A stretch of 64,000 bases of DNA from Paracoccus shanxieyensis (GTDB lineage: Bacteria > Pseudomonadota > Alphaproteobacteria > Rhodobacterales > Rhodobacteraceae). Position numbers and translations under genes: made by a program. The notes beneath the pieces are model-generated. The model was given only the letters and a program-made list of their open reading frames with translations. It made no database searches and was not told where the DNA came from. The stretch covers positions 62,001 through 126,000 of the forward strand of contig NZ_WMII01000010.1 of assembly GCF_009711265.1 (NCBI RefSeq), in the 5' to 3' direction. Of this stretch, positions 14,654 through 54,002 are shown piece by piece. Position 1 is the stretch's first letter. Every line of letters begins with the position of its first letter.

Positions 14654-14682
14654 AAAGGCCCGGCCGGCATGGCCGGGCCTTT
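14654..14682. terminator. Bidirectional intrinsic terminator between glmS and aqpZ
   Basis: Perfect 12-bp inverted repeat AAAGGCCCGGCC/GGCCGGGCCTTT around a five-base loop. It begins 3 bp after the glmS stop and ends 4 bp before the stop of the convergent aqpZ gene, so one hairpin serves both transcripts. Confidence 0.9.
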
Positions 14683-40112: not shown

Positions 40113-40597
40113 TCAGCGCAAAGCCAGCAGACGGCGCTGCAGATCATCATGCAGCGCGACCCGCTCCTCGGGCGATAAAAACGCGGCCAGCTCGATCTCG
40201 CGCTGGCCGTTTGTCAGGGTCAGATAGCTTTCGATGGGATGGTTGTGGTGCAGCGCGAGGCGCACCCAATACGGATCCGTGCGCCACACGCGATCCGCGC
40301 GGCCCGGATCGCTGCGGGTCAGGATCAGCGCCTGCCGGGACAGCTGCAACATCTCGGACGGGCCGCGATAGCTGCGGCGGATTGCAGCCCACAGCGCCCA
40401 GACCGCCAGCGCGGCAAAGGGCAGCACACCCCACAACGCCGCCGTGCCCAGGACCGCCAGCAAGGGCAGCGCCAGAAAACCCGCTGTCAGCCCGATGACC
40501 CAGACGAAGCCTTGCGTGGGCAGGGAGCGGTTTGGCCACAGATGCAAAACGGCCCCGGAGTCCTGCTCCGGGGCCGTGTCATGCCATGCGTAAGGCA

Positions 40598-40598
<1 letters not shown>
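40113..40598 (-). CDS. DUF2244 membrane protein
   Basis: 161 residues. A short N-terminal tail leads to LHLWPNRSLPTQGFVWVIG, the conserved DUF2244 opening, then two adjacent membrane helices (about residues 35-75) and a cytoplasmic C-terminal domain (RVWRTDPYWVRLALHH... IELAAFLSPEERVALHDDL). In alphaproteobacteria the family often sits beside cytochrome oxidase genes; no biochemical role is established. Its ATG shares one base with the ctaD stop (TGATG), indicating coupling. A terminator-like hairpin lies within codons 8-17. Confidence 0.85.
40545..40577 (-). terminator. Intrinsic terminator inside the start of the DUF2244 gene
   Basis: Read on the minus strand, a perfect 12-bp stem ACGGCCCCGGAG/CTCCGGGGCCGT with a five-base loop is followed by TTTTG. 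It begins 21 bp after the ctaD stop codon, where a ctaD terminator would be expected, yet it encodes residues 8-17 of DUF2244. Translation of DUF2244 would disrupt the hairpin, so it could act as an attenuator. Confidence 0.75.
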
Positions 40599-42421
<1,823 letters not shown>

Positions 42422-42898
42422 CTAGTTGGTCGCGGGTGCCGCCGGTTCCGCAGGGGTGGCGGCGTCTGCCGCAGGCGCGGCCCCTGCATCGGGCGAGTGC
42501 TGGGCCAGAAAGGCGATCACATCCGCCTGATTCTTGGCCAGCTTGAAGGTCATCTTGGTTTTAAGGGACTTGTCGCCGACCTTTTCCTCGACATAGCTGT
42601 TGGGGTCGGTGACGTAGCCCGCCAGATCCTCGGGGGTCCAGATCTCACCGGCCTCGCCCAGCTTGATCAGCGCGTCCGAGAACTTGAAGCCCTCGGCGGT
42701 TCCGGCCTTGCGACCGACGACGCCGTAAAGGTTCGGGCCGACCTTTCCCCCCTTGACCACATCGGTCCCGTCGGGCGACTGGATCATGTGGCAGGCCTTG
42801 CACTTGCGGAATTCCTTTTCGCCATTGGCGGCATCCTGCGCCACGGCGGGCAGCGCAAACATCGCCACGGCAACCGAGGCATAGATCGCGGTCTTCAT
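42422..42898 (-). CDS. cycA: Cytochrome c550
   Basis: Periplasmic soluble electron carrier between the bc1 complex and oxidases or denitrification enzymes. 158-residue precursor with signal peptide MKTAIYASVAVAMFALPAVA. The single haem site is C33-KA-C36-H37 and the axial Met lies in LKTKMTFKL. The mature sequence, including KVGPNLYGVVGRKAGTAEGFKFSDAL, matches the class I c2/c550 of Paracoccus, with an Ala/Pro-rich C-terminal tail. The ATG at 42898 follows AGAGGAA. It lies 147 bp upstream of ctaD. Two inverted repeats occur in its promoter/leader region. Confidence 0.95.
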   Translation of the reverse strand: MKTAIYASVAVAMFALPAVAQDAANGEKEFRKCKACHMIQSPDGTDVVKGGKVGPNLYGVVGRKAGTAEGFKFSDALIKLGEAGEIWTPEDLAGYVTDPNSYVEEKVGDKSLKTKMTFKLAKNQADVIAFLAQHSPDAGAAPAADAATPAEPAAPATN

Positions 42899-42954
42899 CT
42901 TGGTTCCTCTTAGGTCGTTTTCCATGAAAAACGGATGGGACCTCTCCCTTCCCT

Positions 42955-53946: not shown

Positions 53947-53973
53947 TCCACCGTCTGGGCGGGCAAATGAACA

Positions 53974-54002
53974 ACGGCCGGGGGACGACCCCGGCCGTTT
54001 TT
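53974..54002 (+). terminator. Intrinsic terminator after the polyamine-type operon
   Basis: ACGGCCGGGG/CCCCGGCCGT perfect 10-bp stem, five-base loop, then a T run (53998-54002). It begins 27 bp after the permease 2 stop. Confidence 0.93.

Follow-up and report, generated by a model that had tools for sequence, protein, structure and literature searches.

The cytochrome c oxidase subunit I gene ctaD of Paracoccus shanxieyensis is followed by a hairpin that is probably its intrinsic terminator, and the next gene, which encodes a DUF2244 protein, starts ahead of this hairpin, so that the putative terminator would be translated as codons 8-17 of DUF2244. Comparison with other genomes supports the view that the hairpin is made of DUF2244 codons and is maintained by selection at the RNA level. 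The preliminary description of this DNA had also placed a terminator behind ctaD. That proposal agrees with our results: the element has the form of a terminator, it is tied to ctaD in both of the gene layouts described below, and its nucleotides are frozen.

In the window, by which we mean the whole 64-kb stretch that was analysed, ctaD occupies positions 40601..42292 on the minus strand (open reading frame and Pfam COX1, E = 3.3e-153) and ends with the stop codon TGA at 40600-40598. It appears to be the gene whose transcript the hairpin would end. The DUF2244 gene (40113..40598 including its stop codon, minus strand; PF10003, E = 3e-37) encodes 161 amino acids and carries the hairpin in its first codons; its product scores 127.9 bits against PF10003, above the curated cut-off of 27. 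The two genes overlap by one base in the motif TGATG (40596..40600, minus strand), which joins the ctaD stop codon to the DUF2244 ATG at 40598-40596. On its upstream side ctaD adjoins a c-type cytochrome gene (42422-42925, minus strand), in which a CKACH motif was recognized by eye and which we take to resemble the c550 gene cycA. When positions 40300-42600 were searched against Rfam, no family reached its gathering score, and the two weak matches lay far below threshold.

The hairpin, read from the sequence and the fold, is ACGGCCCCGGAG-CAGGA-CTCCGGGGCCGT, a perfect 12-bp stem that runs from 40577 to 40549 on the minus strand and is followed by TTTG. Its 5' arm (40566..40577) lies in DUF2244 codons 8-11, the loop CAGGA occupies 40561..40565, and the 3' arm (40549..40560) lies in codons 13-17. 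The T-tract, as read from the sequence and compared across loci, is the TTTT at 40546..40549 (minus strand). The preliminary description had reported a perfect 12-bp hairpin followed by TTTTG in codons 8-17; the hairpin and its codons are as described, but the free tail is TTTG because the first T pairs as the closing base of the stem. The stem begins 20 nt past the ctaD stop and 21 nt past the A of the DUF2244 ATG. With a folding energy of -26.9 kcal/mol (z = -5.5) that none of 200 shuffled sequences equalled, this is a stable G/C-rich hairpin. The window contains three Watson-Crick stems of at least 11 bp (at least 8 GC pairs, loop of 3-10 nt) in total, and first-order random sequences of equal length (n = 10) gave one 11-bp stem overall and no 12-bp stem. 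The other two stems in the window, at 14654-14682 and 53973-53999, are both flanked by runs of A and T and look like ordinary terminators. A repeated or mobile hairpin was considered and rejected: pattern counts in the organism's own genome were 23 versus 16 for the reversed control and 29 versus 41, with no sign of a repeat family.

The junction was compared across two sets of genomes. DUF2244 was found in 124 of 125 Paracoccus genomes, and 123 loci were analysed; the one left out (G104) has its DUF2244 match divided between two contigs. The family set held 295 genomes, 264 of them with DUF2244, and the best-scoring 88 of the 262 loci outside Paracoccus were analysed, a sample biased to near relatives. 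An order-level search returned genomes of the same family only (61 of 61), and the new loci from it stand outside the counts. As the hairpin scan admitted loops of up to 10 nt, two loci with loops of 10 (L243 and L164) were counted.

The hairpin follows ctaD in two layouts. In the layout that we call inside, the gap between the ctaD stop and the DUF2244 ATG is -1 to 20 nt (80 Paracoccus and 25 other-genus loci), and all 105 loci (80/80 and 25/25) have a strong hairpin in the opening 75 nt of DUF2244. In the spacer layout the gap is at least 64 nt, and a strong hairpin lies no more than 75 nt past the ctaD stop in 37/37 Paracoccus and 46/46 other loci (83/83); only 2 of these 37 and 2 of these 46 have a strong hairpin within DUF2244. 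Loci without ctaD in the stretch upstream, a class that takes in L097 since its stretch starts past a ctaD about 1 kb off, have the hairpin in DUF2244 in 0/6 Paracoccus and 1/17 other cases. ctaD was located in all but one of the six Paracoccus genomes, each time with a hairpin behind it (5/5); in the remaining one, G093, a search for ctaD found none. The median distance of the stem behind the ctaD stop is 19-20 nt in the spacers, and 26 nt (Paracoccus) and 36 nt (others) in the inside layout. Thus, as is characteristic of a terminator, the hairpin sits at the end of a gene and stays with that gene, both in the two layouts and in the five Paracoccus genomes where ctaD is not adjacent. Judged by its position in these genomes, the hairpin belongs to ctaD and not to DUF2244. 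The preliminary description had proposed a comparison across Paracoccus; this scope proved too narrow, as 25 of the 88 loci outside that genus also have the inside layout.

Several single loci show variations on this theme. In four genomes (L276-L279, from G115, G107, G124 and G080) ctaD and DUF2244 are on opposite strands and about 6.5-9 kb apart, and the hairpin behind ctaD has changed, with GCA/TGC pairs in its stem that compensate each other. Two wide-gap Paracoccus loci, L118 and L043, have an open reading frame of 144 and 123 amino acids, respectively, between the ctaD terminator and DUF2244, which by eye resembles a glyoxalase/VOC protein. In L220, within the 75 nt past the ctaD stop, a different hairpin, GCCGCGCCCCGAAAAGGGCGCGG followed by TTTT, occupies the same place inside DUF2244, and the usual peptide is missing. 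It is as if the terminator had been swapped out and its position retained.

A translated terminator presupposes that the DUF2244 start codon is correctly placed. If the gene began past the hairpin, where an in-frame TTG directly behind the stem (40547-40545) offers one possible start in the window, the hairpin would be an ordinary intergenic terminator. We consider this very improbable. An MPYxW-type N-terminus recurs across all layouts, including loci with the hairpin outside the gene, and this recurrent start speaks against a misplaced start codon; no common start codon was seen behind the hairpin among the translations examined. At L188 there is an in-frame start at TGATG, and the hairpin falls inside DUF2244 with either candidate start.

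The stem codons are far more constrained than the rest of the gene. In the 80 Paracoccus inside loci, the alanine codons of the stem are GCC in 160 of 160 cases (39% elsewhere in the gene) and the glycine codon is GGG in 80 of 80 (26% elsewhere). All 68 serines at the serine position are encoded by TCC (12% elsewhere), and all 79 prolines at the proline position by CCG (48% elsewhere). Among 70 conserved four- and six-fold columns, a codon identity of 1.00 was reached only in five stem columns, and the other 65 ranged from 0.30 to 0.88. In the T-tract, 52 of 60 valines are encoded by GTT, a codon used for 4.5% of valines elsewhere in the gene, and the codon identity of this column is 0.76.

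Base pairing between the two arms is also maintained. Of the 1133 stem-pair cells in 103 loci, 1099 were intact, whereas shuffles (n = 1000) reached at most 1004; this count uses the best-paired register of each locus, a choice for which the shuffles do not correct, leaves out L220 (other hairpin, other frame) and L243, and includes some false two-sided changes at inner pairs because the register slips in about five loci. A frame-locked parse, which is cleaner than the best-register count, succeeded for 97 of 104 loci, and six of the seven unparsed loci were read by eye. At the pair formed by the second base of the third codon in the 5' arm and the first base of the initial codon in the 3' arm, A-T, G-C, C-G and T-A all occur, and the encoded residues vary jointly as E/D-S, G-P, A-A and V-T. 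Exceptions to this pairing are 10 of the 80 Paracoccus loci, which have A-A, and 3 of the 17 loci parsed from other genera. Compensatory changes between the arms and free drift of the stem with the amino acids kept were the two outcomes between which the preliminary description had proposed to decide. The former are found at this pair across genera, and the latter is clearly not what we see, as five columns are synonymously frozen and the pairs are kept.

The peptide encoded by the hairpin can be traced in the same way. The pattern A[PSL]x2-5GA is present in 104 of the 105 proteins of the inside layout and in 1 of the 106 from the remaining loci. As the codons are frozen and the paired residues co-vary, it is the RNA that, on this reading of the alignments, dictates the AP..GA-type peptide in the DUF2244 protein. 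The reverse reading is that the protein requires an AP..GA peptide and that GC-rich codons then make a hairpin by chance. The peptide is indeed conserved, and the observed stem turns up in 2.6% of 1000 synonymous redraws for the window and in a median of 4.8% (range 0 to 12.3%) for the 80 loci. Because redraws reach the stem fairly often, a single genome proves little, and the case rests on many genomes, which are themselves related. Taken across genomes, chance is hardly credible: it does not account for GGG in 80/80 and GCC in 160/160 cases, for five frozen columns or for paired changes across genera, and the same protein lacks the peptide in 105 of the 106 loci without the inside layout. 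We therefore regard a chance hairpin as ruled out across genomes, though not from one genome alone.

Selection on the RNA could serve a purpose other than termination. The main rival to a terminator is a processing or stabilizing stem-loop, in which the ctaD-DUF2244 mRNA would be made whole and then cut, with the hairpin protecting the 3' end of ctaD. Such an element would be equally conserved and equally bound to ctaD, and the puf intercistronic hairpin of Rhodobacter capsulatus, on which PMC6238624 cites work, is reportedly a precedent. The weak T-tracts of some loci also point in this direction. The site in the window, with its short free tail TTTG, is not listed by a simple terminator scan that asks for at least 5 T in 8 nt, and the 80 Paracoccus inside loci average 4.09 T in the 8 nt behind the stem. 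The longest T run is shorter inside the gene than in spacers, 3.23 versus 4.05 in Paracoccus and 2.87 versus 3.84 in other genera, where the scores cover the 23 of 25 inside and 32 of 46 spacer loci with GGGGC in the 3' arm. These weaker inside T-tracts fit either a leaky terminator or relaxed selection. Three inside loci with an extended stem have almost lost the T-tract (L033, GTGTCA; L021, GCATGC; L103, GTATCT) and are natural candidates for loss of termination; in the spacer locus L246 the T-tract behind the hairpin is missing altogether. As the T-tracts are short, weaker inside the gene and nearly gone in some loci, termination may be inefficient at some loci, or the hairpin may have a different role. 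Nevertheless, at least 3 T occur in the 8 nt after GGGGCC in all 80 inside and all 37 spacer Paracoccus loci, and within the gene the tract is written with a rare valine codon, GTT, for which a stabilizer has no need. We thus consider a processing or stabilizing stem-loop unlikely and favour a terminator.

Our model for the ctaD terminator is as follows. Most ctaD transcripts would be released at the T-tract or within a few bases downstream of it, and those that continue would give full-length DUF2244. If the hairpin terminates, full-length DUF2244 mRNA needs read-through wherever its promoter lies, because the hairpin stands behind the DUF2244 start codon and no promoter position avoids it. 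DUF2244 protein would then probably be made only from transcripts that pass the stop signal, as a small by-product of ctaD transcription, and a low ratio of DUF2244 to oxidase is likely, as it follows by logic from termination at the hairpin. Ribosomes that end ctaD would restart at TGATG. Ribosomes at the junction may also raise read-through somewhat, which is the least certain step of the model.

The preliminary description had given this last step more weight and proposed a translation-controlled attenuator, in which ribosomes moving from ctaD into DUF2244 hold the hairpin open. This would be an addition to our model, and we regard it as possible but rather doubtful. As in known attenuators, the putative terminator overlaps predicted translated sequence, namely DUF2244 codons 8-17, which the codon and peptide tests bear out. 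Stop and start overlap by one base in 29 of the 80 Paracoccus inside loci. Upstream of the TGATG of the window nothing resembles a Shine-Dalgarno sequence (duplex score +1.1 kcal/mol), and the mean Shine-Dalgarno score in Paracoccus is -0.77 kcal/mol for the 80 inside loci, compared with -4.48 for the 37 spacer loci and -2.71 for control stretches of ctaD. Such weak matches fit restart by ctaD ribosomes, as if DUF2244 translation relied on them. However, the missing Shine-Dalgarno sequence may merely reflect the fact that the C-terminus of CtaD is coded there, and in other genera the inside layout has a mean score of -2.94 kcal/mol, near the control, with a strong match (-5 or below) in 32% of loci versus 9% of control stretches. 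An avoidance of Shine-Dalgarno sequences through selection against non-stop initiation was also considered, and we did not adopt this reading. The repeated loss or gain of the layout indicates that coupling is not essential.

The distance from the stop codon bears on the same question. Li et al. (2015; PMC4824070) report that in E. coli a terminator 5 bp past a stop codon is less than 10% efficient and one 28 bp past it about 90% efficient. The stem of the window, 20 nt past the stop, lies near this range of ribosome interference, and because of this distance some effect of ctaD ribosomes is possible. However, the same study reports that translation of the open reading frame costs a terminator 30 bp past an AUG no more than about 10% of its efficiency, so that an early coding-region terminator remains mostly as efficient. 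By analogy, ribosome control at the junction is possible, but its effect would probably be modest, and we do not expect translation to act as a strong switch.

The layout is scattered over a FastTree phylogeny of the 181 of 188 loci that contain at least 100 amino acids of CtaD, with 21 changes over these 181 loci. Well-supported branches alone force few switches, two in Paracoccus and four in other genera. A single clade for the 25 inside rows among the 66 outside Paracoccus is rejected (p = 6.8e-6, from a quick tree). All inside loci but one of the 105 share the peptide and hence the reading frame of the hairpin, the exception being L220. This shared peptide and frame suggests an old arrangement that was often lost, rather than many independent gains. 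A simple deletion was rejected as the origin of the layout, as it cannot bring MPYxW from one side of the hairpin to the other. A tandem duplication at the 5' end could do so; a search of the spacer sequences by eye found no clear remnant of one.

Taken together, these observations lead us to a broader and more tentative proposal, that a 'read-through only' gene recurs in the family. In this arrangement the ctaD terminator would be translated and force a peptide on DUF2244, DUF2244 would be made as a small share of subunit I, and ribosomes crossing the stop-start junction would tune that share; the layout would have been gained or lost often while the terminator stayed with ctaD. One sequence would thus be under selection in many genomes for its terminator-like hairpin as well as for the protein it encodes, and other genomes, with the same element outside the gene, provide natural controls. 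This makes it possible to test directly, in a laboratory genus, what translating a terminator costs and what it is good for, in terms of the read-through ratio, non-stop mRNA and effects on ribosomes. In E. coli, a terminator yielding mRNAs with a start but no stop codon accompanied half the expression of the upstream gene (PMC4824070). The proposal also ties an uncharacterized protein, DUF2244, to cytochrome oxidase production. In the open-access literature we found no account of the ctaD-DUF2244 junction, and DUF2244 itself is scarcely named there; one of the few papers that mention the family connects it with bacterial PH domains.

Attenuators, genes expressed by read-through and terminators within coding sequence all have precedents, and coding-region terminators have so far often been predictions, engineered tests or leader-peptide attenuators. 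We compare the ctaD-DUF2244 junction with five of these systems. The tR2 constructs of Li et al. (2015; PMC4824070) are similar in that a working terminator lies 30 bp past an AUG behind an upstream gene and the terminated mRNA has a start but no stop codon. They are engineered on an E. coli plasmid, whereas ctaD-DUF2244 is a natural junction in many genomes, for which expression by read-through alone is predicted. Attenuators of the pyrBI type (PMC4824070) likewise have a terminator in translated sequence and feed a downstream product by read-through, but the translated reading frame at our junction is the downstream gene itself, with no separate leader peptide. The 3' ends within E. coli open reading frames (Adams et al., 2021; PMC7815308), some of which are intrinsic, were mapped by RNA; the ctaD hairpin is recognized from its conservation and would belong to the upstream gene. 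In convergent overlapping genes of E. coli (PMC2174442), a Rho-independent terminator also lies in the codons of a neighbour. That neighbour is on the opposite strand, whereas DUF2244 is co-directional and downstream, so that its own transcription must cross the terminator. Finally, in an alphaproteobacterium, Rhodobacter sphaeroides, genes downstream of the UpsM terminator are transcribed by read-through (PMC6238624), as we propose for DUF2244; the UpsM terminator sits in an untranslated leader, which the title of PMC5089854 names, whereas the ctaD hairpin lies in the codons of the downstream gene.
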